64,000 nucleotides of DNA from Vibrio kanaloae. Its GTDB lineage: Bacteria > Pseudomonadota > Gammaproteobacteria > Enterobacterales > Vibrionaceae. The notes under the pieces are model-generated. The model saw only the letters and a list, made by a program, of their open reading frames with translations, was not told the origin of the DNA and did not search any database. The stretch is taken from NCBI RefSeq assembly GCF_024347535.1, contig NZ_AP025497.1:1240001-1304000 (forward strand). Direction: 5' to 3'. A program made the translations under genes and the position numbers. The stretch's first letter is position 1. Each line of letters begins with the position of its first letter. This document shows positions 3,247 to 23,437 of the stretch, in pieces.

Positions 3247-3377
3247 GTCCACCCTTAATCCACCCAAGCAAGACTGGGATAAAGTGGGGAAGGGGAAAGT
3301 TGATTATTTTCAGTGTATTGCGCGAGATTTATGACGTCTTTGAGGGCTCAGAAACGGTGAAACCCCGATGTTGGTAG
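3247..3377 (+). repeat. left 131-bp direct repeat bounding the island
   Basis: This stretch recurs at 22928-23058 with the same length and about ten differences (around 92% identity). Both copies start GTCCACCCTTAATCCACCC and end AACCCCGATGTTGGTAG. The right copy runs on into the rplY terminator hairpin, while this copy stops in mid-hairpin at 3377. The longest identical run at the end is about 26 bases (AAACGGTG through GGTAG). The pair brackets two integrase genes and cargo and is read as duplicated attachment-site DNA. Confidence 0.72.
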
Positions 3378-3906: not shown

Positions 3907-5169
3907 ATGGTTGGTAGAGCTAGAAGCAAAGAAACGGCTCATTACCCTCCATTCTTGGTGAAAATGAGCCATAGGGGTCAATCTCGGTTTCGGTTTACGA
4001 CCGTAGATGGTGTGAAGAAGCTATTTCCTATCGGGACTGTAGAGCAAGAAGCGATACAAGCTGCGCATGTTTATAACTTGCAGTATCGTCCTGAGTTAGG
4101 AAGCGCGTTTTCCCTTTCTGAGATGACCCCATTTCGCAAAGCTGTCTCTAAAGGCCGTAAGGACAAATTCAATCGGCCTTTAAAAGAGTGGCTTCCATTA
4201 GTGTTGTCTCGTGTGAAGAAAGAAGAACGGCTTTCCAAAGACGTTTATCGAAATTTGGAAAGGGACTGTTACCGCCTTGATGAGTTCATGGGGCGGTTGC
4301 CAACCAAATCGATCAAGTTACAGCACATCAATGAGTTCCTTTCGAAATACTATTCAGAGTTAAGTAATCGTCAGCTCAACAATAAGATCAGTAACCTTAA
4401 AAAGGTATTTTCCTACCTTGCTGATGAGAGCGCTATTGAGAGTAATTTTGTACTCAATAAAAAACAGCGTCGATTGACCAGAGAAGATTACACAAAAGCC
4501 CGCCACGACCTAGATATCGAAAACTATCAAAAGATCTACGATGCAGCGCCACTGTTTCTGAAGGTAGCAATGAGCCTAACTCTTGAGACAACTCATGCTG
4601 TGAGAGAGATCTATAGGCTTCGTTATCGGATATACAAACCACGTGAAGGCGTGTGTGGGATTCTTTGGAACCCTGACAAAGAGGTGGAGTATGTGGATGG
4701 GCATGCTGTGTATGGAATGCTATATGTTCACCGAGAGAAGGTGAAAAAGTCCGATGCTTCCACTGTGGCCATTCCTGTCACTCAGACGATTAAAGACATT
4801 GTCGACCTTTCTAAAACATCGAGATTGATTTGTCCTTATATCGTTCATCGTAAACCCAAACAGCAGCAACGTGGCATTTCAAAAGAAACCGACCATCTTT
4901 ACCAAGTACATCACCACAATATAAGTAAAGAGTTCAGTAAGGTTCGAGACTCTTTAGGGCTTTATAGTCACCTAAAAAAATCGTTAAGGCCGACCTATCA
5001 TGAAATTCGAGGGCTGGCTGCTCGAATGATTGAACAGCAAGGGCAGAGTGCTACTGAGCGAATGGCGCATGCGAACGCTAAAACAACAAAAATCTATACA
5101 GGCACAAGTGACATTATTTGGCACCAAGTACCACCTGTTGAGGTTATGCCAAAAAGTGGCCAGAAGTGA
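3907..5169 (+). CDS. tyrosine recombinase/integrase of the island
   Basis: This 420-residue protein is a phage-type integrase. The catalytic set is visible: Arg233 (THAVREIYRLRY), a lysine in the beta-hairpin region around 278-281, His365-x-x-Arg368 (HEIRG), His388 (MAHAN) and the nucleophile Tyr397 (KIYTG), nine residues after His388. The N-terminal 90 residues look like an arm-binding domain, and residues about 90-190 the helical core-binding domain. The ATG follows the excisionase stop without a gap. It lies at the left end of the element bounded by direct repeats at 3247-3377 and 22928-23058 and is the likely driver of its integration. All catalytic residues are present, so it may be active. 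Confidence 0.92.
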   Translation: MVGRARSKETAHYPPFLVKMSHRGQSRFRFTTVDGVKKLFPIGTVEQEAIQAAHVYNLQYRPELGSAFSLSEMTPFRKAVSKGRKDKFNRPLKEWLPLVLSRVKKEERLSKDVYRNLERDCYRLDEFMGRLPTKSIKLQHINEFLSKYYSELSNRQLNNKISNLKKVFSYLADESAIESNFVLNKKQRRLTREDYTKARHDLDIENYQKIYDAAPLFLKVAMSLTLETTHAVREIYRLRYRIYKPREGVCGILWNPDKEVEYVDGHAVYGMLYVHREKVKKSDASTVAIPVTQTIKDIVDLSKTSRLICPYIVHRKPKQQQRGISKETDHLYQVHHHNISKEFSKVRDSLGLYSHLKKSLRPTYHEIRGLAARMIEQQGQSATERMAHANAKTTKIYTGTSDIIWHQVPPVEVMPKSGQK

Positions 5170-6302: not shown

Positions 6303-6352
6303 TACCAGTCTCATAAAGCTTCGACGATATCAGTCGAAATAGCTTAAATGCA

Positions 6353-6384: not shown

Positions 6385-6407
6385 ACGCCTAGTCAAAAGG
6401 GTATCTA

Positions 6408-6897: not shown

Positions 6898-6922
6898 AGA
6901 ATTAACATATTGAGGTAGCACT

Positions 6923-7785: not shown

Positions 7786-7800
7786 AGCTTGAAAGTTAAG

Positions 7801-7826
7801 TTCGGATTCCTACTTCGGAATCCGAA
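7801..7826 (+). repeat. hairpin after integrase 2 (shared 10-bp stem)
   Basis: TTCGGATTCC (7801-7810) pairs perfectly with GGAATCCGAA (7817-7826) around a 6-base loop. The same arms and loop size occur at 12619-12644, also 15 bases after the end of an integrase reading frame. There is no T run, which favours a recombination or binding site over a terminator. Confidence 0.6.
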
Positions 7827-7934
7827 TAATCACAGGCATGGAAAGTTGCTTAGTTTATTGCCCAGTGTTGGTGCTGCAGAGCAGGGCTTATTCGCTCAAT
7901 TTCGGCTTCGCTTACAAACAATAGGACTGCAAAA

Positions 7935-10190
7935 TCAAAAAAATCGACTGTAGCGATGTGCTGGTAGTATTTTCCACTCCAATTGCGCTTGACGTTGAAA
8001 ATGTTTTGTTAACGCAGAGGCCTTTTTTTTGCTGACAATGAAACCTGCCTGTTCTAGGTTCGCTTGCGCTATTGTCATTGCTTTTTTTACATATTGTTCA
8101 ATGGTCATTAGACCGGTGAGTTCGCTTAACTGAGTTTGGGTGTCCTTGCTTGCCAATGCTTTCTGCATCGGGCCATAAGCCCCAGAAAGAGATTCTAGCT
8201 CAAATTGATATTTAGTCGGAAATACACAACTTCCCATCTTGAAGGGTTTCAGTTCCCTGATAGCGGCTGCGATATTGTACAAGTTTAACTCACCGTCAGA
8301 CTCATAATGCCCTCGTGGAGCTTTCTGTAACTGGACCCACATTTTTTTCGCATCCTCCTCCGCCAGGTTGAGACCCTGTGCTTGATAAAACGTTTTTAGC
8401 GGATTTAGTGAACTGCTCCAACAACCTATCTTGGGTACATATTTTAGGTGGCCAAAGTGTTTTTCTAAGATAGTGCGTCGGACAGTACCGTCACTCAAAT
8501 CGAGGTTATCCATGCGGCTTAAATGGGACTCGAATGAGAGGTTGGCCGATTGGCACACTTGCCCGGTACCTAAGTGCGTCATCATCACTATCGCGGATTC
8601 CCATTTCGGCAGAGTGATGGCAGCGAGTTCGCTACGCGACGGTAACAGACGTGAACCACTGTGATAAAACAACGTGTCTTTTAACCATCCGGTTAAACCC
8701 ACCAGGTCATAGTTACATGCAGTTTGGTAGGTCGGTTCATAGGCCAGTATTGAAGGTAACGTTGAACGATTAAAATAGAGATCTATTGCGTCTAAAATCT
8801 GTTGGTTGGCCGCGTCACGTCTAGTCCTAATAGTATTCTCTGCACCGATGATTAGGTGTGGGATATCACTGGCGCTCAGAGCCTGGTAGTACGCTTTAGA
8901 TCCGTCGATATACGTAGCTTCTTTGCGACGATTTGTTGCAATCCCTTTATCACCAAACATATGCTCGGTCTTGACCATCATCACTTCGACAATCATCCTT
9001 CCACCGAGCACAAAGTCGACTCGGCGGTTTAACGAGGGGACATAGCATTGCGACTCAACCGTCACAGGTACGCCATAATTTTTGAGTTTTTTTTCAACCG
9101 AGGTTGATTGCAATAATTGACCTATCAGTACCTCGCCTGCTGTACCATTTTTTGTTGCGTCAAGTCGAAGTGCGCCTTGATTGGCCTTGTGAGTAAAATT
9201 AAGCTTACCACGCGCAAATAAATGCGCTTGATATTCGGTGATATTCGCAAACCCGTGACTCTCGACTGCACGTTTTATGGTGGCGCTACAGTAATCCTTC
9301 GACAGTACATCAATGAGACTTAAGTTGACCATTTGGGTTCGATCCTTGCAAAGTTCGATAAAAAAAACCTCTAGCCGTTTCAGTCCATGTTTACCAGAAA
9401 ATGATAAACGTGCGTCAGATGACACCGGTAAGACTTCGCAGAGTTTTGTTTCATTACGAAAATACTCACGATAGTTCAGAGCAACTGTACTAATGAGTGG
9501 GTCATTGCATTCGACAATTTCTCGATGACTGGGAAAAGTAACAAATATGGTCATCATTCTCGCAGCGATGATCATTTGGGTTAAAAGCGGTTCATAGTTG
9601 ATGGTATTTTTTATGCTCCAAAGGGGCGGATTCTGTTTAATGGCCTGACCGAGTGCACGCAAATTATCGAGATCAAATTGTTGTTGATAATCAAAACCCT
9701 TGAGCACAATTTTATTTTCGGACAGCAGTTCACGCTGCAAAACGGCAATATGACCGTAATCGCCTTTTGTTGACTCAGGCCAAAATACTTGTTTCAGTCT
9801 CTCGGCTAAGGTTGACGCCTTGATTTCAATGATATAATGATCGAATTCAAGGACTTTTGAATCCTTGATCTGGCTTAATAAGGCTGAGTTGGAGAGTAAC
9901 GTCTGGTGCTTGGTGCATAGCTCTGCGTAAAACTCGCGTAACGCCTGTTTTGCATGCTTACTTTCCCAAACCCTCACATCTGTCGTTCGTTTTAAAACCC
10001 TTTTCAAACCATTGCGTATTGCTACGTCCTCCAAATTGAGCCCAGTTTTTAGCAGCGGACGAAGCGGTACCAGTTCAAGATTAGTTTTGATCGCTTTATT
10101 CAGCACACCGTGTGCCGGTATCCCCTGGAAGTGTGTATTGAGTAGCTTGCGCTGATTGGGAGTGAGTAGCATCGTTATATTTATGTCCAA
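7935..10190 (-). CDS. 751-residue protein with PD-(D/E)XK-like nuclease signature, unknown
   Basis: I cannot name this family. The middle of the protein has the ordered pattern of a PD-(D/E)XK nuclease: Glu353 in GTAGEVLIGQLL, Asp392 in NRRVDFVLGG, and Glu402 in IVEVMMVK, with Lys407 as a possible catalytic lysine in place of the usual ExK. The N-terminal 340 residues and C-terminal 300 residues are mostly helical and without named motifs; the C-terminus is basic (LPAHRYSRFF). It is one of three reverse-strand genes in a module flanked by duplicated integrase tails. The nuclease reading and a defence or mobility role are inference. Length and lack of stops argue for a real gene. Confidence 0.7.
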   Translation of the reverse strand: MDINITMLLTPNQRKLLNTHFQGIPAHGVLNKAIKTNLELVPLRPLLKTGLNLEDVAIRNGLKRVLKRTTDVRVWESKHAKQALREFYAELCTKHQTLLSNSALLSQIKDSKVLEFDHYIIEIKASTLAERLKQVFWPESTKGDYGHIAVLQRELLSENKIVLKGFDYQQQFDLDNLRALGQAIKQNPPLWSIKNTINYEPLLTQMIIAARMMTIFVTFPSHREIVECNDPLISTVALNYREYFRNETKLCEVLPVSSDARLSFSGKHGLKRLEVFFIELCKDRTQMVNLSLIDVLSKDYCSATIKRAVESHGFANITEYQAHLFARGKLNFTHKANQGALRLDATKNGTAGEVLIGQLLQSTSVEKKLKNYGVPVTVESQCYVPSLNRRVDFVLGGRMIVEVMMVKTEHMFGDKGIATNRRKEATYIDGSKAYYQALSASDIPHLIIGAENTIRTRRDAANQQILDAIDLYFNRSTLPSILAYEPTYQTACNYDLVGLTGWLKDTLFYHSGSRLLPSRSELAAITLPKWESAIVMMTHLGTGQVCQSANLSFESHLSRMDNLDLSDGTVRRTILEKHFGHLKYVPKIGCWSSSLNPLKTFYQAQGLNLAEEDAKKMWVQLQKAPRGHYESDGELNLYNIAAAIRELKPFKMGSCVFPTKYQFELESLSGAYGPMQKALASKDTQTQLSELTGLMTIEQYVKKAMTIAQANLEQAGFIVSKKKASALTKHFQRQAQLEWKILPAHRYSRFF

Positions 10191-10390
10191 AAGTATGCGT
10201 AATCGTAAGTTACAGTCACCTACAAAATGTTTAAGTGTAAGAGAAATTTAGTTAAATTCGGCTCATTAAAATGCTTGCCATATACCTGAAATAAACTTTG
10301 TGGCACTTTGAGCTGAAAAGTGCCACGGATAACAATTCAGATTGTTGCGATTATGTCGGCTTGGAGAAGTATGTTTATACTTTGTTACAC

Positions 10391-11203
10391 TCAAAATATG
10401 CGACTAAGTATGCTTGGAGAGTTCCGTGCGCTAATTTCATTTAAGAAGATAGACGTTACTTCATCGTGGAATCGATTATTTTCTTTAAATGCTGATTGTT
10501 CAGATTCCATTTTAACAACCTCGTATTCAATAACAGGTATTGCAATTGAATCTATTCTTTCCTTAAATAGCACCATCGCTTCATCTGTTGATAAGTCGAA
10601 TACAGTAAGCTCTCGCATCATTTGTACTAAAACGTTTGGGTCTATCTCTTTTATTTCTTGTGGAATCGCAGCCTTTCTAGCTTTATGTCCCTCATTAAGG
10701 ATCCTAAAGTGAGCTTCAGATAACTTTTTATATTCGCCGTAGGTCCCTGTAGCCAGAGCAAGTTCTTCATATTTTTGATAAACGTCAGCTCTGCACTTAG
10801 ATACCTTTTCACTCAGTTGTTTTAACTCTAATTTTACTGATGAATGAGCCTTCATTAGTGACATGGGATAAACTTGATATCTTGAACTGTTCGCTATTTC
10901 TAAATTGGTAAACATATGGCCCATTTCATCAAGAATAAGTTTGTAATTACCTGCTAATTCTCCATGTTTCAGAAACAATTGATTTTGTAAAGGCATACAG
11001 GTGGATGTGACATCGCGAAGTGGGCGATAATATTCTTTTACCAAACTTTTGTCAGTAGTTAAATCGCTCTTGTAAGCTTCGGTGATCCCCGCAAAAATCA
11101 ACGACCCCAAACACAAAAGCAATAGGTTTTGCAGAAACGTGTAATCTCGCTTCTTTGGAACAGAACTACTAGTTTCATTGTTACCATTGTTACTTGCTGA
11201 CAT
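10391..11203 (-). CDS. single-pass membrane protein with helical soluble domain, unknown
   Basis: The product is about 270 residues. A short polar N-terminus (MSASNNGNNETSS) leads into one transmembrane helix (about residues 24-43 of the form starting MSASNN), followed by a long soluble helical domain with coiled-coil character. The ATG at 11203 is chosen over one at 11215 because GAGGTG sits eight bases before it. No enzymatic motif is visible and I do not recognise the family. It lies between the 751-residue nuclease-like protein and the Mrr-type nuclease, all on the reverse strand, so it may be an anchoring or sensing subunit of that module; this is inferred from position only. Confidence 0.6.
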   Translation of the reverse strand: MSASNNGNNETSSSVPKKRDYTFLQNLLLLCLGSLIFAGITEAYKSDLTTDKSLVKEYYRPLRDVTSTCMPLQNQLFLKHGELAGNYKLILDEMGHMFTNLEIANSSRYQVYPMSLMKAHSSVKLELKQLSEKVSKCRADVYQKYEELALATGTYGEYKKLSEAHFRILNEGHKARKAAIPQEIKEIDPNVLVQMMRELTVFDLSTDEAMVLFKERIDSIAIPVIEYEVVKMESEQSAFKENNRFHDEVTSIFLNEISARNSPSILSRIF

Positions 11204-11409
11204 AACACACCTCATTTAACTGGATGCATTTACAGTATCAATAAGTGGGCTGTATGTAAATACAGTTGTTGTATGTGTTAGGGAATGGCATAAGTAGACA
11301 TGAATGAAGTACTGCGCTGTACTCACTCGTTCCCAAATGTTTTTGGGGAGCTTAAAGTGGTGTAAATGCTAGATTGTTGAATATAAGGTTATGATATAAT
11401 TGGATATTT

Positions 11410-12240
11410 TCATGAGGGGTAGTAGTCGCAAGTATAACGACACTTTGGATACGTAGAGCACCCATAGAAAGACATTCCAGTTTTAGCTCCCCGCTTAGCT
11501 ACACGTATTACAAGCTTAGATTGGCAACGAGGACAGATTCTGGGTTCACTGATGGATCTTGGCGCTGGGGGAGGCACCAACGGTTTGTTCTGAAAGCTGC
11601 GCCCGTCTTCAATCATATGAACTAGCTCACTGCCGTTGACCAACCATAGGCGTTTATCTAGGGAAAAGGCAACGGCCTCAGAAGTAAAGTCGCCCGACGT
11701 TACAATTATCATTTTACTGGCATTGTTTGCGATCATGACTCCGTACATTTCCCTTAGAACTTGCACTCCGACTTTGCGAGTTTTCCAATGCTTACATTGG
11801 ACAAGACTTAACTCATTATCCTTTGTGAGCCAAATATCAACACCGCCGTCAGGTTTTTGAGTGAAAGACTGTTTGACCGCATACCCTTGAGACTTAAAGT
11901 ATTCACCGATGTAACTTTCAAATTCTATCCAGTTTAGGTGATTTAGCGGTGAGGTATTTTTATGCACTCTAACCTGAGAGCTCGTCGTAAGAAAGCTTCT
12001 CTTCCTCTTGTATTGCTTGAAAAACGCTATCGGTGCGGGAAGTAAAAATAAAAACGTAAAGTATGGTGCCATCAAGGGTAAGTTTGGAGCTATAGCTTTA
12101 AAGAGAAAGTTGTCACTTTCAATGGCTAAGTTAGGCAATAGATATGAAAGTCCAAAATAAATACATGCTGATAGCAATACGCTTAGCCACCATGGAGCGT
12201 CCATTAAGTGCCATATAATCCCATCATTTTTTCTTGCCAT
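11410..12240 (-). CDS. membrane-anchored Mrr-type restriction endonuclease with topoisomerase-like zinc finger
   Basis: This 276-residue protein has three parts. Two N-terminal transmembrane helices lie at about residues 18-37 and 57-75. An Mrr-like PD-(D/E)XK domain (about 100-210) has Glu107, Asp135 in GGVDIWL, and the QxK pair Gln148/Lys150 in LVQCKHWK. The C-terminal zinc finger of the topoisomerase C4 type has CPRC (Cys236, Cys239) and CSTYPKC (Cys261, Cys267). Mrr-family nucleases cut foreign, often methylated, DNA; the membrane anchor suggests action near the envelope. All catalytic residues are present. It closes a reverse-strand module next to an integrase ghost. Confidence 0.85.
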   Translation of the reverse strand: MARKNDGIIWHLMDAPWWLSVLLSACIYFGLSYLLPNLAIESDNFLFKAIAPNLPLMAPYFTFLFLLPAPIAFFKQYKRKRSFLTTSSQVRVHKNTSPLNHLNWIEFESYIGEYFKSQGYAVKQSFTQKPDGGVDIWLTKDNELSLVQCKHWKTRKVGVQVLREMYGVMIANNASKMIIVTSGDFTSEAVAFSLDKRLWLVNGSELVHMIEDGRSFQNKPLVPPPAPRSISEPRICPRCQSKLVIRVAKRGAKTGMSFYGCSTYPKCRYTCDYYPS

Positions 12241-12388
12241 TTAAATTCACCCAGTAGCATATTGGTGCATTAAAGCACAAGTTATAAGTACTTGAAATAG
12301 TGAGGTTGTTGATATGTGTTGGGGTAATGATTTCAGTAATACTAAATATGCTTCTTAGATGAAAAAACACAAAAGAATTTTTATCTAA

Positions 12389-12603
12389 ATAGGCTTAGAT
12401 AAAGTGCATGGTTCATTGCATGCGCATGCGGCTCAGCGATACTTTGAATTGACGGATTTTAATGCTCCTGCTGCGGGACGGGGCCGTCAACCAAGGGACT
12501 AACCGGAATGGACAAACAGCACGACTTTGAAGCAAGAATGGTCATTACCGAAGAGTTAGGGTATGGAAGAGAAGAGGCTATCGCGGCTTACCTAGGCCGT
12601 TAA
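12389..12603 (+). pseudogene. ghost of the 3' end of integrase 2
   Basis: This stretch aligns with 7573-7785 (the last 70 codons of the second integrase), including CAGCGATACTTTGAATTGAC and the terminal CTAGG(T/C)CG(C/T)TAA. It carries a 2-base insertion and many substitutions, and stops in the inherited frame. It is followed by the same hairpin as the intact copy. No upstream part of the integrase is present. Confidence 0.8.
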
Positions 12604-12618
12604 AGCTTGTAAGTTAAG

Positions 12619-12644
12619 TTCGGATTCCTTATTCGGAATCCGAA
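12619..12644 (+). repeat. second copy of the integrase-tail hairpin
   Basis: TTCGGATTCC (12619-12628) and GGAATCCGAA (12635-12644) match the arms at 7801-7826 exactly, with a different 6-base loop. With 7801-7826 and the integrase tails it forms a direct repeat of about 255 bases bracketing the nuclease module. Confidence 0.6.
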
Positions 12645-12649
12645 TATTT

Positions 12650-13041
12650 GTAACTAGCCAGAGCATCAAGCTCAGCCTCGACATAGCGCTAATTGTTGTT
12701 GAGCGCCACCCATCAGGTGGTGACACTGTATCGCCACTTGATGGCTTGAAGGTGATTACGAAAGGCCTTCGACTGATGCTTTGCAATAGTCAGTTATTCG
12801 TGCCGATAGGAGTTAGCTTTTATCCGCCCTTGGACATATTTTGAACGTAAAGAAGTAGATATTGATCATCATCATAGCCCAGTTTTACTTGCTGAAATAC
12901 TGTCACGCGATTTTTAGTAATTTTTCCAAATTCTTAAAAAGAAGTTCTAAAACGTAGCTACCATAAATTACTTCTAGTATGGTCAATTCTGCGAAATGAT
13001 GGGATAGCGTCGAGTAAAAAAGTACATAATAAAAGGTAAGC
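12650..13041. other. gene-free stretch before the cold-shock-domain gene
   Basis: An imperfect hairpin (CCATCAGGTGG, about 12708-12718, against CCACTTGATGG, about 12732-12742) is present. An open stretch of some 55 codons (reading SQSIKLSLDIALIVVERHPS) has no start codon and could be a gene fragment. The last 40 bases before 13042 hold AAAGGTAAGC, the likely ribosome-binding site of the next gene. Confidence 0.3.
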
Positions 13042-15288
13042 ATGAGCGACACAAAAAATTACACCTTAGGTACCGTCGACTGGTTTGGTGGTAAAAATAA
13101 GAAAACAGGTCGTAATAACCACTTTGGCTTTATTACCACACATGACTATACAAGCGTATTTGTTCATAAAGATGAAGTAAACGGCGGCGTACTTGGAGAA
13201 GGCGAAGTCGTTGTATTTGAACTTAGTAAAGATGCCAAGAACAAACTCAGCGCAAAAAATGTCACCACGATGGTGACTAGCGAACAGCCCTCATCTGAAG
13301 AAATGGTTAATTTTCTTCTTTATGCCGCAGATTTAGATAAGGTTATTTCACGATGTTCTTATAAAAACTCAATCATCAAGATACTGCAAGGTGACTTTGG
13401 AAAAGATATTATTAAAAAGGTAAGACATCAAGTCAGATTAATTCCTATTTTATCTAGGATTTTGAAAGAATGTGACAATCACGTTGCTTTGTTTTCAATA
13501 CTTGTAGAAAAACTAAGTGCTGAAGACCTGTACAACTCTGCAATTAATCCCTCCACTATACCTAATAGTTACTTCTTTCATAACTATGAAAAACTATTTG
13601 AGTGGTGGTCATCTTTAAGTAATATAAACTTAAAGTTAGAAATTTTAACTAGTACTGTTGCTCATTTATCTCGATCAAATGACTTATATGAAAACTTCAT
13701 GGATTCTTTATCTAATAAAGAACAGTTAGACTTTATCAACATCGTAAAATCTGAGTTAGGTATTTTATCTTCTGTCGTAAAACTATTAGGTAAAAAATCA
13801 AAGGATAACCCTGTACTCAAATGTTATGTTTCGGGTCTCACGGTGGATATGATCATAAACTCTGAGTTGTCTGTACTTGATCTGCCAATCGAACTTGTTA
13901 ATAAAGCATTTATAAAAAAACTGAAAGTTATCGATCTTAATGAGTCTTACGATGAACTTTCAGTACAATTTTTAAAGTTACTGTCAAAGTGTCATTTAAT
14001 TGATTGCGCAATAGATAGCGTATCTGAAAAAACGAAAATAGCGTTAGTTCAATCTTTCTCAGAAGCGCTACCTTACGATGAAGAGTTTTTGCGTTCAGTA
14101 AATTATAGAATGAAAAGCGCTAACTTATTCAATATTTATAGCAAAGTGCGGAATCTCGCAGACTACCTTGAAAATGACATTTCAAGTAACCTACTACCAC
14201 CTACTTATATCAAAAATCAAATTCAAGAATTTCTTGGTTTTCTGGTAAATTCAAAGATTGGGACTAGTGGAAAAGTGAACGAGGCTATCGTTACTTTTAC
14301 TCTGACAAACCAGACGACTAGACTCGAAGGGATCAAATTACTTAAACAAGCGCATGTCACTCACTACTGTGACATTATTCAATGCTTAACTGAAAATGAT
14401 AAAGTAGTTTTAGAGTACTTAAAAGCTCAGGCAATTAAGCACTCTATCACAGCTGAGGAGATGCATCATTTGCTACCTATATTATCTTTAGAAGATAAGG
14501 AGTTTAAGAATGCTTTTTTCGAACAGCATCTAGATTCAATTTTAGTTTGGCTTGAATCATTAGATGATGATACTAGAAAATCATATTACCAAGAGAACCT
14601 GAGGTTTTTTGACACAAGTGCGTTACTTACTCTAGTGTTCAAGAACTTAATTGATATTGATTCTCTTAGCAATAGAATTGATGAGATAGATACTTTTGTA
14701 TTTGATGTGCTCTGTAAAAAAAATACAGATGTTCAGAATTATGTGCGAACTATTTATAAGCAGTGTTTCAATAATTTTTTAGATTTCACGAAAAATAGTA
14801 TTATTAATCCTCTATATAATGCTAATCAATTATTAGTGAAAAAGCATAACATCAGAATTAAGGCATATAACAAAGACATGTCATTTGTAGAAGATGTAGA
14901 AAATGATAAAGACATTGCTACAGATCCTGAGTGCTGGATGTTATCAAAGTTGTTGCCTCTTATTAATTATGAAAATAGTGTTGAAACAATTTCATCTGTC
15001 ATATTACATGAAATATGGAGTGCTATTTTAAATAATAAATTAGATATTGATCATCCATCGATATTTAAACTGTTTCCACAGTGCAATACCCTTAAGAACG
15101 AATACCCACATATTAACTTGTCATGTGAAGCTTTTGTGTGGAAAAAAGAAAAAATTTCTAAATATAGCAGACCGGAAAATGTCTACTTGTGTCGTGCTCG
15201 TCGCTGTAATGACCCTCGAGTAGAACCCGTATTAAGCAAAACTTTGAACAATATTCGATATTCGATTGGCTCTGCCACTATGGTTTAA
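13042..15288 (+). CDS. large protein with N-terminal cold-shock domain (frameshifted before its C-terminus)
   Basis: The first 72 residues form an OB-fold cold-shock domain (TLGTVDWFGGKNKKTGRNNHFGFI, then SVFVHKDEV), which binds single-stranded nucleic acid. Residues about 80-700 are a long, mostly helical region with no motif I can name. The last dozen residues of this frame are out of register. Adding one A to the run in AGCAAAACTTTG (near 15238) gives a continuous protein of about 911 residues ending in a Cys-rich domain (15776). Codon use is strongly AT-rich compared with the core genes. It converges on the helicase operon across a shared terminator. The full-length role is unknown; nucleic-acid sensing is inferred from the domain. 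Confidence 0.72.
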   Translation: MSDTKNYTLGTVDWFGGKNKKTGRNNHFGFITTHDYTSVFVHKDEVNGGVLGEGEVVVFELSKDAKNKLSAKNVTTMVTSEQPSSEEMVNFLLYAADLDKVISRCSYKNSIIKILQGDFGKDIIKKVRHQVRLIPILSRILKECDNHVALFSILVEKLSAEDLYNSAINPSTIPNSYFFHNYEKLFEWWSSLSNINLKLEILTSTVAHLSRSNDLYENFMDSLSNKEQLDFINIVKSELGILSSVVKLLGKKSKDNPVLKCYVSGLTVDMIINSELSVLDLPIELVNKAFIKKLKVIDLNESYDELSVQFLKLLSKCHLIDCAIDSVSEKTKIALVQSFSEALPYDEEFLRSVNYRMKSANLFNIYSKVRNLADYLENDISSNLLPPTYIKNQIQEFLGFLVNSKIGTSGKVNEAIVTFTLTNQTTRLEGIKLLKQAHVTHYCDIIQCLTENDKVVLEYLKAQAIKHSITAEEMHHLLPILSLEDKEFKNAFFEQHLDSILVWLESLDDDTRKSYYQENLRFFDTSALLTLVFKNLIDIDSLSNRIDEIDTFVFDVLCKKNTDVQNYVRTIYKQCFNNFLDFTKNSIINPLYNANQLLVKKHNIRIKAYNKDMSFVEDVENDKDIATDPECWMLSKLLPLINYENSVETISSVILHEIWSAILNNKLDIDHPSIFKLFPQCNTLKNEYPHINLSCEAFVWKKEKISKYSRPENVYLCRARRCNDPRVEPVLSKTLNNIRYSIGSATMV

Positions 15289-15776
15289 ACTACGCAACAT
15301 TTAATGAGCCATCAAAACGAGATTTTGCTATTAAGCTTGCTGGATACTTGAATCGAATAAGAGAGCTTCACTCGCGTTTGCATTGCCGTACCTGTGATAA
15401 GTTGATGGTGCCAAACATGAAGTACGCGCGTGTTGAGGTGGTCAAACACGATCCATCCACAGGTCAGAAGATAAAAGTGCCAGTAAGTGCTGCATATAGA
15501 TTAACAGTCTTTAAGTGCAACTGTGAAGATTGCCAAGAATACAATATTGATTATTACATCAACCATTGTATTGGTTTTAAATGTTATGAAATTATCGACA
15601 GCAGAGATCTCACTGAGCGGTGCACTGAAGGGAGATATATTTGTCCAAACCCAGAGTGCAGAAGTTGTTGTTCAACTCACGCTGAGAAGAAAGTTGAAGT
15701 TCAGCAACATAATTTCGGGGAAAAGCACGCTTACCTTTATAGAAGTTCTCCTAGTTTTAAGAAATTTATTGATTAA
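15289..15776 (+). pseudogene. C-terminal Cys-rich (zinc-ribbon-like) part of the cold-shock-domain protein
   Basis: This frame continues the upstream protein after a one-base slip: FEQYSIFDWLCHYGLNYATF spans the junction, then NRIRELHSRLHC. It is rich in paired cysteines: HCRTCDKLMVP, CNCEDC, HCIGFKC and CPNPECRSCC, likely two or more zinc ribbons. There is no ribosome-binding site of its own, which supports reading it as the broken-off C-terminus of the gene starting at 13042. The break is either a real mutation or a sequencing slip in an A run; no canonical slippery heptamer is present in frame. Confidence 0.65.
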
Positions 15777-15930
15777 TTATGGTGTGAACGTTCTAGTAGA
15801 AGGTGACCATGTCGTTTTCGTTGAGTGGTCAGATAAGCGCTATAATCTTATCGAAAATAACGACCACGAAAATTGGTTATGGGCTGAAGATTTTGGGCAA
15901 CTAATTAAAAAACTAGAAGATTCACAATAG
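15769..15930 (+). CDS. possible small protein overlapping the end of the Cys-rich frame
   Basis: A frame from TTG 15769 (or GTG 15784) gives up to 53 residues, NVLVEGDHVVFVEWSDKRYN and on to LIKKLEDSQ, with a protein-like composition and an acidic C-terminus. The same frame opens as far back as 15523, but that part only shadows the Cys-rich frame. It may be a separate small gene or the true C-terminus of the upstream protein after another frameshift. No strong ribosome-binding site was found. Confidence 0.35.
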   Translation: MINYGVNVLVEGDHVVFVEWSDKRYNLIENNDHENWLWAEDFGQLIKKLEDSQ

Positions 15931-15987
15931 AAGTAGATGGTCAATTGCTTATTTATATTATAGTTACTCTTGGTTAAATGTAGAAAG

Positions 15988-16020
15988 TTAAAGGTCTCAA
16001 TGTGTAAAAGAGACCTTTAA
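15988..16020. terminator. bidirectional terminator between converging genes
   Basis: TTAAAGGTCTC (15988-15998) and GAGACCTTTAA (16010-16020) form a perfect 11-bp stem with a 11-base loop. It lies between the converging cold-shock-domain gene and the reverse-strand helicase operon and can serve both. Confidence 0.7.
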
Positions 16021-16032
16021 TATCCCACTAAA

Positions 16033-17583
16033 TTATGGCTTGCTTCGAAGTGAAAGTATTGCTCTTGCTGCGTTGCTATTTAAAACCTTTTGCTCGCGGC
16101 GGATCGCTTGCTCAATCTCACAGCCGCTTTTTTTATCGAGTTTAATCAATAAACTATCAGGTAAAAAAGTGGCAAGAGTATCGTATTTGCCATCACTCCA
16201 ATTTACAGAAGCTGTAGCACCATTAATTCTTTTAGCTAATAAGAATTCAAGTAATTGCAAGCGCTCTGGATCTGTCGTAACGTAGCCTATAGGTAGAGTT
16301 AAAGCGCTATCCATATGTGGTTGTCCATGATATTGAACTACCCCTATAACTCCTGGGATTAATAACAGCTCTAATCTATCAAATTGTGCTTCTGAAGATA
16401 AACTGACACCGTTAGCAAATCGCCCAAGATGTTGCTTGCGCTTTAGGCGACTCTCGCCGTTATTTTTACTCGAATGTAAAAGCGTTACGCGACCTCCTTG
16501 AGTCTCGCAATTGTTATCTAAGATATCGCCTATATCTCTATTGAAGCGAGCTAGCAGACTACTATTCGCCCCCCAAAGTGGAACATCACTGCTGTACCAA
16601 ATGGCTTTGGGTGGAATCGAACTATCTTGCATACGCAAAGCGTCTTTTAACTCGTTAATGAAACGTTTAGCGTTGTCTGGCAGATATACAGCTCCCAATA
16701 TGCCAAATGTTTGGTTACAACCGTACCCAGTATTCCGCTTCTCTCTGGCTTCTAGCCAGCCCGAGTAATCAAACTGATACCCGTTTGAGAATTTTTCCAA
16801 TACGGGGTCATGAACTAAATGGCAGTAATCTGTGCAATTTAAGCCTGATTCATCAAGTAGCTGCTCGCCTAGAAAATCTGCGATGTGAGCTTCCAAGTCA
16901 TTTGCTAACGGTATTCGATTGTTGCCAATACGCTCGTAGGAACGCGTAAACTTTTGAGGGGTGCTGTTATGGACAGCGTTATAGCTAACTTCAACATCTA
17001 CAGGAATTTGTACCATTTCATTCGAGCTACACCCCATAACTTTGTAAAGTTGAGTCCTTTGACGCTCATAATCATTATTTCGGCTTAGCATTAAATGATG
17101 TCGGAATTGGGTACTAAATGCTTCGGTTATTGACGAGATATCAGCGTCTAACTTATCCCGAGGTAGTAATTCAGGCAAGCCTGATGTCAGCCTGCGATGT
17201 TGCTGTGGTTTACAAACTGATAGGGTCAGTAAATCAAAAGCAACATCTTCTGTTTGCTCTTGATATTTGACAAGGCTTGGTTTGCCTTCATTAGTTGCTG
17301 CATGTTTTCTTAAAAATGAGCTTGCCTCAACATGACCTTCTGGATTGACGTTAATTAGGCGGTTGGCAAGTAAACTATCTAGTAGAACTTCTCGCTCTCT
17401 GTCGTTAAGACCAAAATAGCTTTGTAGCTCACTCGGGTAAAGTTGGTCAAAAATAAGCAACAGGCGACAAGCGAATTGTTCTATGCCAGGCATTAATTTT
17501 TCTTTTGTCCAAGCGCAGTTTATTTTGTAACTGCGAGCTGGTATTAATAAAGTGATCACATTACCTAGACGTGGCTCTGACAT
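16033..17583 (-). CDS. 516-residue partner protein of the NERD-kinase-helicase, unknown family
   Basis: The start ATG overlaps the stop of the helicase gene by one base (TAATG), so the two proteins are made together, helicase first. Residues about 45-100 look like a winged helix (YPSELQSYFGLNDREREVLL, then ANRLINVNPEGHV). The rest is alpha/beta; a C-terminal part (about 340-460) alternates strands such as LELLLIPGVIGVVQYH and SALTLPIGYVTT. A PLD-type HxK(x)4D motif was sought and not found: HSSKNNGES is only superficially similar. It probably forms a complex with, or regulates, the large helicase. I do not recognise the family; a defence role is inferred from the partner and the island setting. 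Confidence 0.72.
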   Translation of the reverse strand: MSEPRLGNVITLLIPARSYKINCAWTKEKLMPGIEQFACRLLLIFDQLYPSELQSYFGLNDREREVLLDSLLANRLINVNPEGHVEASSFLRKHAATNEGKPSLVKYQEQTEDVAFDLLTLSVCKPQQHRRLTSGLPELLPRDKLDADISSITEAFSTQFRHHLMLSRNNDYERQRTQLYKVMGCSSNEMVQIPVDVEVSYNAVHNSTPQKFTRSYERIGNNRIPLANDLEAHIADFLGEQLLDESGLNCTDYCHLVHDPVLEKFSNGYQFDYSGWLEAREKRNTGYGCNQTFGILGAVYLPDNAKRFINELKDALRMQDSSIPPKAIWYSSDVPLWGANSSLLARFNRDIGDILDNNCETQGGRVTLLHSSKNNGESRLKRKQHLGRFANGVSLSSEAQFDRLELLLIPGVIGVVQYHGQPHMDSALTLPIGYVTTDPERLQLLEFLLAKRINGATASVNWSDGKYDTLATFLPDSLLIKLDKKSGCEIEQAIRREQKVLNSNAARAILSLRSKP

Positions 17584-20500
17584 TATTCATTTTCTCCTAA
17601 TAAGCTATGGCCGCAAAGTACTTGATAATTTGGATTAGCTGCGGAAACCTGATTACTAATGAATTCATGTACCGTCCCTAGTGCTGAATCATTATTATCC
17701 TTTGACCACATTCTTCCTGCCCCTAATACAAGCAGACGTTCTTGTGAGCGTGATATCGCGACATTGATACGTGGAGCGTCCCTCAAAAAGCCTTGTAACT
17801 TTTCTGTGTTGTCACGAACTAGGCTTAGAATGATGATTTTATTTTCTTGCCCTTGATACGAGTCAACGGTATTAATCTTGATTAAGTTACGTATTCTACC
17901 TGCCCACTCTGCACGGCTAATTGCGTTTTCAATTTCCTCTTTTTGCTGCCTATACATAGTAATAATACCTATTGGATAAGGCTGTTCTGCTGTGATGGTG
18001 TTTTCTAATTGATCTATCGTGTCATCGTCCGCTAAGGTCTGTAATGCTTCTAGTAAAATTTGAATCTCTCGGGGGTTATAATAGCGTCCATTTCCTTTTT
18101 GTTTTTCACCACCATTTGCACATGAGCTTGAACTGTCAATCCAAGTCACTGATTTATTCCAAGGGCTAGGTAGTTTCTGATACCATTCAGGAGAGGCTCC
18201 GCGACCTGTATGCAACTTACCCATATCTTTAGCGTAAAAACATTCCGAAACGAGGTCACCAATAGGTTCTACCATTCTATATTGAGTGTCTAGAGCAACT
18301 CCATTTGTCGCTTTGAAAGCTTTTTCAAAATCAGATTCATAAAAAATGCCTCGACCAAGCTCTAGTTTCTTGGCTGCTAGTTTGAGGTGCTGTTGTTGGT
18401 AGAATGGTGGTAGTTGTTTATGGTCGCCAACAAGCAGTACTCTTTTACCTGACTGTAATGCAACCATCAATTCTGCAGCTTGTGCTCTACCAGCTTCATC
18501 GACAATAACCCAGTCAAAGCTAGACTCAGTTAGCTCTAAGCGACGACGACCAACACCTACTAAGGTTCCACATACTAACTGTTTACTTTTGAACATGAAT
18601 CGATCAAAACCAGCCTCTCCTCCCTGAAGTACATCCATCCACTCTTGGCTCATTTCTAGTAATTGTAAAAAGCGGCTAAGGTTCTCAGGGTTGTTGTAGC
18701 AACGTTGGGCCGATATGATTTCAGCCAACTGTGAAAGTAGCGTTTCGTCATAAGTTAGAGGTTCCGAAAACTCACTTTCGAACATAGAATAAACCACTGC
18801 CTGAATTCGTTGTTCTATGTGCTCAAGTTGCTTTAGTTCTTTTGAAACGGCTTCTTGATAGATAGGGCCATTACTTTTATTTTTTTCTAACTTCAAAACT
18901 TCACGTCGGCATTGAGCAAGTGATACAAGTAGTGGGTTTAGGGTCCTATGTAATTGGCATAGCTGTTCAACTAAAGAAGGTGCCATGCCCAGCCGCTTAC
19001 CGAGAGTACTGACTCGTAAGTCATATTCTCTATGAAATTTATGTTGTATCTGACGTTGGAGAGCTTTGGTTTCAACGCACAGCATACCCTCGTCGATCAT
19101 TTGTTCGTGACCAATCCGAACTGTGTCCAAAGCCATGCCTTGTTGATGGCATAGTTCTCTGGCTTTTATTGCTACGTTATCAACGGCCGTATGTGACTGA
19201 CCCACTAGAAGTATGTTATTTACTCCACAATGTTTGTATAGGTAGTGGATAAACTTTGAAACGAAAGTTGTTTTACCCGTACCAGGGGGACCTTGTAAAA
19301 CGCCAACAGGCCCTTGAGATACTAGTTGTTGGAATGCCGCTAATTGCTGATCATTAAACTCTTGACCTGGTTGATCGTATCGTTTCCGCAAAGCTTCGAC
19401 ACTTGGTAATGGTTCCATTGTTTGCATTTGTACTTTTTCGTGATAGTCAAAATACTGCGCAAGTTGTGGAATTTCAGCTTTATGATCAATTACTCGTTGT
19501 AGTGCTTTTAAACGTAGCTCTCGTGAAGACTTGTCTCGAATTGACTCTAATTGTAGCTGACTACCATCTTGGATTCGCTTACGAGCGGAATCGAAATCGA
19601 AACGTATGGCTAAAAGGTTTTGAGTCGTTTCAGTAAGACGGAGTTCTCCTAATTGAATCGAATCATTTTTTTCTTTGAGGTAAACGAGAATTTTATCATC
19701 GACTTCAAAATTGAGGTCTGAGCCAGATTCAGTAGTGTATGGGTATAGTAAACAACCACTAGTCGACTCCTTAAATTCCGCAGAGTCAATAGTCACTTGT
19801 TCACGTAATTCCCCTTCGGTATCAGCAAGTGCTTGCCATAGTTCAACTGGTTGCGAATCACTTACATCAAAGTCATGCTCTTCCATTTCTTGATTTGGAT
19901 TTGCTCTTTCGATAATAGCGTCGATTACAGGCTCAAGGGACATTAGTAGTTCTATGAAATCATTGCGTTCAGTAAGTACCCCTTGTTGAATTGATAATTG
20001 TGATTCAATCTTAGTTTGAGAGTGTTTCCCCGCCTTTATCGTTTCTTCAATCGATAGACCTGTGTTGTAGTTTATTCTTGATATACAGCGATCCTCAGGG
20101 TTAAGGTCTACTAATAACTGCTCACCAAGGCCTGTAATAAAACAACGTAATTCATTAGGAAAGCGGGGGTTATTAGACCAACTGCAATTGAAGTGATATC
20201 CACCATCATTTGGTTCTAGTAATTTTAAGTCGGCCGGCCATGCTTCTCCGCGCCAGCGTATTGAAATGGAATCCTCTAAATTTATTTGAGGCTTAGAGTT
20301 GATTTCAGTTTCGGGTTGGTCGGGAGCTGTCAGGGATTGTAGTAAAGGATCTAACGCAATTGGAATCCCATCAGGTGACTGACTTGCTCGGCTAATTTCT
20401 TCTGCGACAGCAAGAGGCATGTTTTCATGGAAAAGCTCCTCTACTATTTTATAAATTGCAAAGCAATCTCGCCCAAAAGCATCTGTAGCATCTGGGTTCG

Positions 20501-22544
20501 TGGGTTGATAGCACTTGTTCGAAGTCAATTCATCACTATATTCTAGTAATCCAGTTAGTGTTAAAGCTAACTGTTCGTCGTCTTGAACTAGTAGTTTATT
20601 TGGGCATAAGTCTCCATGTGGTAGCTGCTTTTCATGGAACCGGAGTACCGTATGTATTAATGTCTCCGCAATGCTCAGTCTCTGTGCGTGATTCAACTCA
20701 TGTGAGGATATGTACTCCGACCAGAGCTGACCTTCAATATGTTCACTTACTAAATAGAGCCCACCTTGCCCTAATAAACCACAGGCATGGACCGAGGGGG
20801 TCGGTAGGTTTAGTTGTTCAAGCTTATCAATACGTTGTTTAAATGCGTGAATTCTACGATTAACTCCAGGCTGTTGAGTGTTGAGTGTTACTCCGTCCCA
20901 TAGTTTCACCTGCAATAACTGCTCATTTTGATTGGAGAGGTAGTCGATATACCCAGTTTTAGCTATCGCAGCAAGAGCTGGATAAACGCTGGCTGCGAAC
21001 TCAGGTAATGGCTGAAATTCCATCACAACACCCACACTGTTCATATCACTTCGGAAAAAATCGCTATTTTCTATTTCTTGGTGGATCTGGTTTGCTTCAT
21101 CATGTCCTTGGATTTGTTCCTGTGTTGCTGAATTGAACTCATTTAACATGATATCCGCACGAGGGAATCGTTTGCTTGGCTCTAGGTTTAAAGCCTGCTC
21201 AAACCAAGGTGTGAGAGCCCCTCCAAATAGATCTTCTTGCGGTATTCGCCACTCTGGTACTTGATTTTCTACTAATAGTGATTCTCCTGAAAAACAAATA
21301 CGATAGGCTATAACAGCTAACATAAAGACGTCTTGGCGGTATGGTTCGGCTGCCTCTTCAAAAGCATCTTCAGGGATAAGATAAGGTGCACTTTGTAGCG
21401 TTGTACGCAGTTCTTCTAAGTTATCTCGTCCATCGATAGATGCGGAGCCAAATCCTGTGACAACAATGCTTTTCTGATCTTCGGCATACCAAAGATTATG
21501 AGGGTCGATGTCGCGGTGGCCTACACCTAAGCTGTGTAATTCAGAGAATGGTGCTAACAGGGCTCGTACACGGTCGATTCGTTCAGGTTTACTCCACTCT
21601 TTAGCTTCGCTGTCTAGAACTTCATCTAACCTTTTAAAGCTTCTACGCAATTCGTAAAGCTCACGAGCATCGTCGGTTACGTTCTCTTCTGAAATCTCGC
21701 TAACAGAACGAAGCATATAATCTTGCATAGTAGCACTGCCATTACGCACTTGACGTCCTACTCGAGTTTCACGTAAGGCTATTTCTGCCCATATTGATTG
21801 TTCAGCGTATGCAACACCTAATGCATCGAAATCCCATGTGCGAAGTAAGCCTCTATGGAGAGCATTGTCTTTATGGCCAGCTCGGAACTCACTGTATATA
21901 TTGCGGGGGTGACTGAAAAATGGTTTCTCGTTAGCGATATAGTCGTTTTCTTTTAATGGTAAAGGTTTAACTTTGGGGCCATCAAAGAAAGCCTGAATAA
22001 TTGGTAATACTTGAGGGGAGTTGGGGCGTTTATGTTCACCCTCAAAGAGATGTGCGAAGTTAGTGGCTTGAACTAAATTATCGTAATGCTTAGGTTTTCC
22101 AATAGTTAAAAATTCATCACGAGTATGTACAAAGCGACGTTCACTTGTAGGTAGGTTTTCTGGGCCTGCATTACCGCAAAGTACCACATGAGCTTCGACA
22201 TGTAGGAAGTAGCCAAGTTTTCGAGAAAGCTCTTCTTGTAAAAGGTTTTTCAATCTTAACGCATGCTCGCGCTTAATTTGATAAGGGCTCTTACCTCGAG
22301 GCTTCCCATTTTGGAACCATTTTCCTCCTTCGTAAGTAATGGTGCCATTCCACTCTTTTAATTCAACTAATAATAGCCGGTCTGCTGTGATAATAAGTGC
22401 GTCAATTTCCATTGAACCTTGACTATCCGTAACCACTAAACCGGCATATCCAAACCAACTGTCAGGAAGCTGTTGAACCATCATATCAATGGTTTTAGTC
22501 TCGCTGCGGTGCAGGCCAGCACCACCAACAATCTGATATTTCAC
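17583..22544 (-). CDS. NERD nuclease / tandem kinase-like / SF1 (Upf1-like) helicase fusion
   Basis: The frame opens with GTG at 22577, but the GTG at 22544 has AAGGAG five bases upstream and is preferred (1653 residues; numbering below uses it). An N-terminal NERD domain has Asp48, Glu61 and Lys63 (EIDALII, LLVELKEW), a nuclease signature. Kinase-like domain 1 has His343-Arg-Asp345 and Asn350 (HRDIDPHN), but the DFG Asp is Gly364 (VTGFG). Kinase-like domain 2 has HGDLCPNK (643-650) with Lys in place of Asn, and LTGLL in place of DFG. Both may be pseudokinases. The C-terminal SF1B helicase has Walker A GPPGTGKT (1085-1092), DEAG (1349-1352), GDHKQLPP (1373-1380), QYRM (1421-1424), QGQE (1564-1567) and Arg1599 (VAISR). 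The N-terminal NERD-kinase order recalls PglW of BREX, but no other BREX gene is present. It is likely a DNA- or RNA-processing defence effector. Confidence 0.85.
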   Translation of the reverse strand: MKYQIVGGAGLHRSETKTIDMMVQQLPDSWFGYAGLVVTDSQGSMEIDALIITADRLLLVELKEWNGTITYEGGKWFQNGKPRGKSPYQIKREHALRLKNLLQEELSRKLGYFLHVEAHVVLCGNAGPENLPTSERRFVHTRDEFLTIGKPKHYDNLVQATNFAHLFEGEHKRPNSPQVLPIIQAFFDGPKVKPLPLKENDYIANEKPFFSHPRNIYSEFRAGHKDNALHRGLLRTWDFDALGVAYAEQSIWAEIALRETRVGRQVRNGSATMQDYMLRSVSEISEENVTDDARELYELRRSFKRLDEVLDSEAKEWSKPERIDRVRALLAPFSELHSLGVGHRDIDPHNLWYAEDQKSIVVTGFGSASIDGRDNLEELRTTLQSAPYLIPEDAFEEAAEPYRQDVFMLAVIAYRICFSGESLLVENQVPEWRIPQEDLFGGALTPWFEQALNLEPSKRFPRADIMLNEFNSATQEQIQGHDEANQIHQEIENSDFFRSDMNSVGVVMEFQPLPEFAASVYPALAAIAKTGYIDYLSNQNEQLLQVKLWDGVTLNTQQPGVNRRIHAFKQRIDKLEQLNLPTPSVHACGLLGQGGLYLVSEHIEGQLWSEYISSHELNHAQRLSIAETLIHTVLRFHEKQLPHGDLCPNKLLVQDDEQLALTLTGLLEYSDELTSNKCYQPTNPDATDAFGRDCFAIYKIVEELFHENMPLAVAEEISRASQSPDGIPIALDPLLQSLTAPDQPETEINSKPQINLEDSISIRWRGEAWPADLKLLEPNDGGYHFNCSWSNNPRFPNELRCFITGLGEQLLVDLNPEDRCISRINYNTGLSIEETIKAGKHSQTKIESQLSIQQGVLTERNDFIELLMSLEPVIDAIIERANPNQEMEEHDFDVSDSQPVELWQALADTEGELREQVTIDSAEFKESTSGCLLYPYTTESGSDLNFEVDDKILVYLKEKNDSIQLGELRLTETTQNLLAIRFDFDSARKRIQDGSQLQLESIRDKSSRELRLKALQRVIDHKAEIPQLAQYFDYHEKVQMQTMEPLPSVEALRKRYDQPGQEFNDQQLAAFQQLVSQGPVGVLQGPPGTGKTTFVSKFIHYLYKHCGVNNILLVGQSHTAVDNVAIKARELCHQQGMALDTVRIGHEQMIDEGMLCVETKALQRQIQHKFHREYDLRVSTLGKRLGMAPSLVEQLCQLHRTLNPLLVSLAQCRREVLKLEKNKSNGPIYQEAVSKELKQLEHIEQRIQAVVYSMFESEFSEPLTYDETLLSQLAEIISAQRCYNNPENLSRFLQLLEMSQEWMDVLQGGEAGFDRFMFKSKQLVCGTLVGVGRRRLELTESSFDWVIVDEAGRAQAAELMVALQSGKRVLLVGDHKQLPPFYQQQHLKLAAKKLELGRGIFYESDFEKAFKATNGVALDTQYRMVEPIGDLVSECFYAKDMGKLHTGRGASPEWYQKLPSPWNKSVTWIDSSSSCANGGEKQKGNGRYYNPREIQILLEALQTLADDDTIDQLENTITAEQPYPIGIITMYRQQKEEIENAISRAEWAGRIRNLIKINTVDSYQGQENKIIILSLVRDNTEKLQGFLRDAPRINVAISRSQERLLVLGAGRMWSKDNNDSALGTVHEFISNQVSAANPNYQVLCGHSLLGENE

Positions 22545-22927
22545 TCGTACTCCTTGAACCTCTACCGAGGTTTGCACCTAGCTATTAATGATATTTTCTT
22601 TCATATTCAGTTAGATAGGTTGCGGCGTCAAGTATAACTTTGATTAATGAATAAGGTTGTGTTTTGGAACCAGAATCTTAGTTATTAATGGTAATTAAGC
22701 GTTAATTTAAATGGTTCCCTGTTCGGTTTGTGAGTTGGTTTTGTGGTTGTTATGTTAATTGTCAATTCAGTTTCTGAAAGGGCCTTTAAGGTGTGTACTG
22801 TGTCTAGAGTTAGCGCTAAATGTCGCTGATCTTGTATCGCTGAGGGGCTGATTGTTGCGGGCATTGAATTAGATTAAAAGGTGTCCTATTATTTTTTTAG
22901 AAAAACTACTGTATAAGTCCACCTTTC
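22545..22927. other. promoter region of the helicase operon and right inner end of the island
   Basis: No gene is seen here. The part next to 22545 should hold the promoter of the reverse-strand helicase operon, although no clear -35/-10 pair is assigned. The right end carries the 18-bp motif CTACTGTATAAGTCCACC (22906-22923) that matches 3514-3531 near the left end of the island. Confidence 0.4.
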
Positions 22928-23058
22928 GTCCACCCTTAATCCACCCAAACAAGGTTGGAATAAAGTGGGGAAGGGGAAAGTCGATTGTTTTCAGTGTGTT
23001 GCGCGAGATTTACGACGTTTTTGAGGGCTCAAAAACGGTGAAACCCCGATGTTGGTAG
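22928..23058 (+). repeat. right 131-bp direct repeat bounding the island
   Basis: This is the partner of 3247-3377 (about ten differences in 131 bases). It contains GTCCACCC-type repeats, AAGTGGGGAAGGGGAAAG and TTGCGCGAGATTTA, and ends inside the rplY terminator hairpin. Together the two copies define an integrated element of about 19.7 kb. Confidence 0.72.
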
Positions 23059-23070
23059 CATCGGGGTTTC
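23040..23070 (-). terminator. rplY terminator hairpin, overlapping the island end
   Basis: GAAACCCCGAT and ATCGGGGTTTC pair around GTTGGTAGC. It lies about 90 bases beyond the rplY stop. The loop is where the 131-bp repeat ends, so integration appears to have occurred in this terminator and rebuilt it. Confidence 0.65.
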
Positions 23071-23158: not shown

Positions 23159-23437
23159 TTAGATACGGATGAAGTCCATGTGCTCAACTTTAGGCTTGAA
23201 CGCGTGACGTTGAACGTCTTGCGGTTTAACCTTAACTTCTGCGCCGTCAATCACTAGAGTGATTGTTTCGTAGAATTCAGGCTTATCCATTTGGTTGATC
23301 ACGTCAGCGTGAACAAGTTCGATAGCTACAGCTGCTGCTTCGCCACCGTAGATTACAGCTGGGAATTTACCAGCGTGACGTAGGCGGCGGCTCGCACCTT
23401 TACCTAGTTCAGTACGTACTACTGCTTCAAATTTCAT
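23159..23437 (-). CDS. rplY: 50S ribosomal protein L25
   Basis: The 92-residue protein is the short, single-domain form of L25 found in gamma-proteobacteria. It binds 5S rRNA in the large ribosomal subunit. It begins [20 protein letters not shown], continues with KFPAVIYGG and ends with [11 protein letters not shown], all typical of L25. The start is the ATG at 23437 with GAGAG upstream. It is the first core gene beside the mobile island, and its terminator appears to be the island's insertion point. The order rplY-radD-rsuA-bcr, interrupted here by a two-component operon, recalls the E. coli yejH region. Confidence 0.97.

Follow-up and report, generated by a model that had tools for sequence, protein, structure and literature searches.

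A two-gene operon at one end of a mobile island in Vibrio kanaloae raises the question of whether it represents a defence system that has so far gone undescribed, or a known system that had not been recognized. The operon lies in a 64,000-nucleotide stretch of contig NZ_AP025497.1 (the window), where the list of open reading frames gives two minus-strand frames, at 17583-22577 (1664 codons) and at 16033-17583 (516 codons). The first-pass annotation had read them as a 1653-residue chain joining a NERD nuclease domain, two kinase-like domains and a Upf1-type helicase, coupled through a TAATG junction to a 516-residue partner, and this architecture was confirmed (Table 1). The GTG at 22544 is the likelier start of mkoA, because it is preceded by AAGGAG and falls in an alignment column that holds Met in 90% or more of 40 sequences; this start would give the 1653 residues.

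Table 1. Features of the operon and of the island that carries it (positions in the window)
Feature	Position	Strand	Length	Basis and remarks
Left direct repeat	3247..3377	.	131 nt	Repeat search and alignment with the empty site
Tyrosine-recombinase-like integrase	3907..5169	+		Pfam Phage_int_SAM_1 E 3.3e-4 and Phage_integrase E 0.0046, neither reaching the Pfam cut-off
Mrr-type restriction endonuclease	11410..12240	-		Pfam Mrr_cat E 1.1e-28; island neighbour, outside the Mokosh system
mkoB	16033..17583	-	516 aa	PADLOC MkoB PDLC03923
MkoB PLD-like domain	16189..16731	-		About residues 285-465, borders estimated from the secondary structure of the model
MkoB winged-helix domain	17281..17499	-		Fold
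TAATG junction	17581..17585	-		mkoA stop 17583-17585, mkoB start 17581-17583, one shared base
mkoA	17583..22544	-	1653 aa	PADLOC MkoA PDLC03921; probable GTG start at 22544, frame open to 22577
SF1 Upf1-like helicase core	17718..19358	-		Pfam AAA_11 E 1.9e-46, AAA_12 E 1.9e-43; Walker A Lys1091, DEAG
Kinase-like domain 2	20325..21047	-		About residues 500-740, borders estimated; Pfam Kdo E 4.9e-6
Kinase-like domain 1	21108..21959	-		About residues 196-479; has HRD but no DFG Asp; Arg235 probably at the beta-3 Lys position
NERD nuclease-like domain	22179..22508	-		Pfam PF08378 E 2.2e-15; Asp48, Glu61, Lys63
Right direct repeat	22928..23058	.		Overlap with the rplY terminator hairpin (23040-23070)
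rplY (ribosomal protein L25)	23159..23437	-		Pfam Ribosomal_L25p E 2.4e-22; core gene by insertion site

Identity of the operon

The locus is almost certainly a copy of Mokosh type I, a named anti-phage system composed of MkoA and MkoB. The longer protein matches the PADLOC MkoA model PDLC03921 over profile positions 6-1594 of 1607 (E 0, 1322.5 bits), and the shorter one matches the MkoB model PDLC03923 over 11-443 of 454 (E 1.2e-66). The table of a review lists NERD as a domain entry of Mokosh type I and a PLD-like entry for types I and II (PMC10952713), and a second source places the helicase and a PLD nuclease of type I on separate genes and mentions a kinase domain (PMC11672841). The window shares with this system the two genes, their order and the NERD, kinase-like and Upf1-type helicase parts, the helicase being, by PADLOC, Pfam and fold, an SF1 enzyme of COG1112 with a Ser/Thr-kinase-like part; the PLD-like character of the second protein is seen in its fold only, with moderate confidence. 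The view that no described system has this exact pair thus fails, since PADLOC names both proteins nearly end to end and the review table already lists their NERD and PLD-like domains; a match to a named system is the outcome that the first-pass annotation had itself set down as refuting it. In one E. coli record the RefSeq labels of the two genes are 'AAA domain-containing protein' and 'hypothetical protein'. The match to the Mokosh models supports, as a prediction, the earlier suggestion that the operon acts in phage defence. The window copy belongs to a clade that, judged by its 224 bits against PDLC03923 compared with 345-416 bits in the other subfamily, is a divergent member of the MkoB family.

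Several related systems were compared with the locus. Mokosh type II (MkoC) has helicase and PLD-like parts as well, but it is a single chain (PMC11672841), whereas the window has two frames, and MkoA matches MkoC weakly, with its best stretch in the helicase (E 5.7e-35); type II was rejected. NERD followed by a kinase-like domain is also the order in PglW of BREX and MAD6 of MADS, which allows the locus to be read as a stripped BREX/Pgl-like system in which this part of MkoA acts like PglW. Residues 23-427 do match PglW (E 1.5e-25). The NCBIfam PglW model, however, reaches 88.6 bits against a cut-off of 990, over residues 25-431 only, while the MkoA model is matched almost end to end, and a PADLOC scan of all 13 island frames of at least 100 aa found no methylase, PglZ, BrxC-type or MADS partner. 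This reading is therefore extremely improbable, and the first-pass judgement that the locus is not BREX despite its PglW-like order was upheld. MADS was likewise rejected, with 140.5 bits against a cut-off of 460 for the MAD6 equivalog and no MADS partner among the island frames. Hachiman and other nuclease-helicase defence pairs resemble Mokosh in having a nuclease module that works with a helicase, but they are built from other domains than MkoA and MkoB. MkoA itself is placed among the defence SF1/SF2 helicases in a published analysis (PMC12278908).

Domains of MkoA and MkoB

The Pfam matches of MkoA run from NERD through a protein-kinase domain and a further kinase-like domain to the AAA_11/AAA_12 helicase. 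Conservation was tallied over 104 rows, comprising the window protein and 103 of the 120 listed homologues (at least 1500 aa) out of 978 found; one of them, P0062, is 99% identical and probably the window protein itself. Adding four more distant MkoA proteins (from L045 and L048-L050) gave 108 rows. The NERD residues Asp48, Glu61 and Lys63 are kept in all 103 ungapped rows, and the Walker A Lys and the DE pair of the helicase, whose best solved relatives by sequence are Upf1/NAM7, are invariant in 104 of 104. With both sets of motifs undamaged, the nuclease of the system is more likely to be NERD.

The two kinase-like domains differ in what they have kept. Kinase 1 retains the HRD Asp in 104/104 rows, and its DFG position is Ser in 84 and Thr in 20, never Asp. 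Its putative beta-3 Lys position is Arg and its alpha-C Glu is kept in all 108 rows, with both positions assigned from the strands and helices of the structure model. (VIA-align rows for MkoA residues 1-779 are filled by kinase 1 and cover that domain, not NERD or kinase 2.) Kinase 2 looks catalytic in most of the family: the beta-3 Lys is present in 101 of 104 rows, the HGD Asp in 102 and the loop Asn in 87, and each of two candidate DFG positions is Asp in 84, with some Asp in the stretch in 85. In the window protein, HGD is kept, the loop Asn is replaced by Lys650, and the DFG region (Gly665, Glu668) has no Asp anywhere in residues 662-670. The first-pass annotation had noted both the lack of the DFG Asp in the two domains and the lack of the catalytic-loop Asn in the second, and both observations were borne out.

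The window shares the loss in kinase 2 with 18 relatives, giving 19 of 108 rows in which the loop position is Lys in 16, Met in 1 and Asn in 2. The four more distant proteins lack the Asp of kinase 1 and keep one in kinase 2. In a quick tree built from the helicase columns only, a single branch (SH-aLRT 100) separates the 19 rows from all the others, so that one loss of the kinase 2 Asp in the window clade would explain the pattern; the program gave long-branch warnings for other parts of this tree. Shewanella, Pantoea, Vibrio and E. coli are among the named members of this clade. Lack of the DFG Asp does not always abolish nucleotide binding or phosphate transfer in kinases, although such exceptions are rare. 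The proposal that the kinase-like domains serve sensing rather than catalysis is plausible for the window clade; for most family members it is doubtful where kinase 2 is concerned, because 85 of 104 rows keep an Asp in the DFG stretch. What sets the window clade apart from Mokosh type I at large is thus its second kinase, in which the catalytic Asp is missing as well and so, in most rows, is the Asn.

MkoB has no Pfam family at E<=0.1, and no solved relative was found by profile (best E 0.28). Foldseek matched its structure model to F13, NucT, phospholipase D and TrmBL2, with E 3.5e-4 to 8.8e-4 for F13 and NucT and TM-scores by target of 0.26-0.49. With moderate confidence, the model indicates a winged helix, which also fills the VIA-align rows for MkoB, and a PLD-like domain whose site is degenerate (His419-x-Gln421...Ser426...Gly433-Tyr434-x-Thr436); the register of this site rests on motif spacing and on the low-TM-score fold match. 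PLD was absent from the Pfam matches of 36 MkoB members at E<=1, and no alignment resulted when the MkoB profile was compared with a single MkoC PLD sequence.

The canonical HxK(x)4D site was sought in 63 MkoB rows, namely the window, 61 homologues and L008, whose motif is interrupted by 3 inserted residues. The Lys position is Gln in 57, Arg in 2, Tyr in 2, Asn in 1 and His in 1, and the Asp position is Ser in 62 and Thr in 1. The altered motif is itself conserved: His, Gly, Thr and Tyr/Phe at their positions in all 63 and Ser in 62, with 57 of 63 rows fitting H-x-Q-x4-[ST]-x6-G-[YF]-x-T without gaps. Four further proteins read by eye (L002-L005) also lack the Lys and Asp at this site; in L003 and L004 an HGK lies close to the C-terminus but not at the PLD-like site, and P0047 has an HSK upstream of that site. 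The degenerate site is established for the PDLC03923 type only. The second PADLOC MkoB family, PDLC03922, is rare (2/369 genomes at 1e-20); of its two matches, L052 lacks an HKD, and the HKD of L053, which matches in part, is intact.

These data bear on the idea that Mokosh type I acts through MkoB, as a PLD-like nuclease with an unusual H-x-Q site, and that MkoA is a sensor helicase. One review names the MkoB-type protein a PLD nuclease, in competition with NERD as the effector (PMC11672841), PLD-type nucleases are among the Foldseek matches, the near-invariance of the altered motif is as expected of an active site, and the HKD of L053 shows the canonical residues in a partial match to the other profile. 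The Lys and Asp of HxKxxxxD are, however, missing in 63/63 rows and in L002-L005, whereas the type II MkoC of L055 has an intact HKD (HSKIITID...GSFN), and the NERD residues of MkoA are invariant. (Another MkoC match, L054, covers profile positions 5-964 of 1136 only and has no HKD.) We consider this reading unlikely, and NERD remains the preferred cutter. Searches of the open-access literature found no report of the altered PLD site or of the loss of the kinase 2 Asp; such word searches can miss details of this kind, as a search for Mokosh and NERD found nothing, yet the table in PMC10952713 lists NERD.

Distribution and genomic setting

If MkoA and MkoB form one system, they should occur together. 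MkoA lies directly upstream of MkoB on the same strand in 23/23 MkoB loci of named genomes found in a scan with the MkoB alignment, and at one of them (L021) it is readable only with frameshifts. Among 197 family genomes, full-length MkoB occurs in 9 copies in 8 genomes and MkoA in 9 copies in the same 8, at a spacing of 21-104 nt between model matches. Six more of the 14 family genomes matched by MkoB have weak partial matches only, and the second match in G177 is also partial; these were excluded from the pairing count, and their frames of 161-164 aa resemble short winged-helix regulators. The two genes were thus paired in every copy checked and are not the seldom-associated genes that would have spoken against a system. 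At one locus, L051 (G030), mkoA carries a single internal TAG stop.

Of 5426 complete E. coli genomes, 69 gave a hit to a 3868-base query made up of mkoB and the 3' portion of mkoA, and in 68 the hit spanned at least 80% of that query. Relatives of MkoB were also found in 37 plasmid records, 29 of them from Pseudomonas, and in one phage record; a single scan of viral_contigs with the window MkoB as query found no relative. In the phage record and in one plasmid record MkoB adjoins an MkoA-sized gene, with several integrases close by. The layouts of these two records, a Pseudomonas phage (L069, BK061480.1) and a Pseudomonas megaplasmid (L070, NZ_KY883660.1), are alike: an integrase, one or two small frames, the MkoA-sized gene, MkoB, one frame and three integrases.

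The surroundings of the clade loci were scanned with PADLOC at 1e-15, using 55 of 122 listed neighbour frames from seven loci. Together they matched 92 families, many overlapping, of which 25 are listed. Taken singly, four of ten chosen frames matched defence families, comprising Old/AriA-like and Septu PtuA (L018), Shango SngA (L041) and a reverse transcriptase (L044), and the other six matched nothing at this threshold. These raw counts from seven loci fit a defence-island setting. One genome (G085:C2) carries a pair of Mokosh type I operons, each from a separate subfamily, about 12 kb apart (L040 and L041), and beyond the second lie a Shango SngA gene and a BrxC/D-family ATPase, perhaps SngB.

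The mobile-island location proposed at first pass was borne out. The region is bracketed by direct repeats of 131 nt that are 92% identical, and in G025, the closest relative in a genus sample of 61 genomes, the flank is 96% identical, both mko genes are absent and the two flanks meet at the unoccupied site. From the repeats, the empty site and the overlap of the right repeat with the rplY terminator, the island extends from about 3378 to 23058 (19.7 kb); its left end carries integrase-like genes, and mkoAB closes it on the right, next to the terminator. In G177 a 97.4% identical mkoAB lies at another place, and on its other side is an Mrr gene 76% identical to that of the window.

Other features of the region were noted. 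Direct repeats of about 305 nt (7522-7828 and 12338-12646, 83-86% identical), which overlap the 3' end of an integrase frame (7072-7785), enclose a nested 4.8-kb cargo of three minus-strand frames, one of them Mrr. A 751-aa frame (7935-10190, minus strand) matched nothing in Pfam at E<=0.1, nor in PADLOC and NCBIfam at E<=0.01. A 748-aa protein (13042-15288, plus strand) has a cold-shock domain at its N-terminus (Pfam CSD E 1.2e-8) and an otherwise unfamiliar body, and lies where the GC content of the window is lowest (0.33). Many similar repeats of about 200-260 nt, common to G025 and resembling an integron cassette array, occur upstream of the window (G000:C1, about 1231200-1234350) and in L063/L064. 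Rfam gave no family above threshold in window positions 1-40000.

The loss of catalytic residues from two kinase sites and one PLD site, and the broken relatives at L021 and in G030, could be taken to mean that the locus is degenerate and non-functional. The window copy, however, has frames free of internal stops and frameshifts, its losses are common to a clade spanning several genera, its helicase and NERD motifs are invariant, and a nearly identical copy exists elsewhere in G177. We regard degeneration as very improbable.

A model for the window clade

Mokosh is said to degrade viral transcripts, in passages that give the statement and no experiment (PMC11291487). For the locus as a whole, we favour, with less assurance than attaches to its identification as Mokosh type I alone, a reading in which the system on the rplY-terminator island uses NERD as cutter, the helicase as motor, MkoB as loader and the tandem kinases as signal relays; on balance this reading is probable. 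The winged helix and PLD-like domain of MkoB would bind either nucleic acid of the phage or a processing intermediate and assist in loading MkoA, whose Upf1-type helicase would translocate on the bound nucleic acid, and the NERD domain would be the cutting effector. Kinase 1 would act as a pseudokinase scaffold across the whole family. Kinase 2, catalytic-looking in most relatives, would have lost this capacity with its Asp in the window clade, and the tandem kinases there probably relay conformational or nucleotide-binding signals with no transfer of phosphate, because the second has also lost the catalytic Asp. A stricter form of the model, which we put forward tentatively as somewhat short of an even chance, holds that the clade variant has neither phosphate transfer nor a canonical PLD site, so that the pseudokinases would be allosteric sensors, MkoB a loader and NERD the sole nuclease.

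Naming the system Mokosh type I removes a false claim of novelty. What the locus offers is a natural experiment within the family: in the window clade the catalytic residues of kinase 2 appear to have been lost once, and NERD and the helicase are intact. The contrast between this clade and its relatives makes it testable whether Mokosh defence needs kinase activity, and which of the two, NERD or the PLD-like protein, does the cutting.
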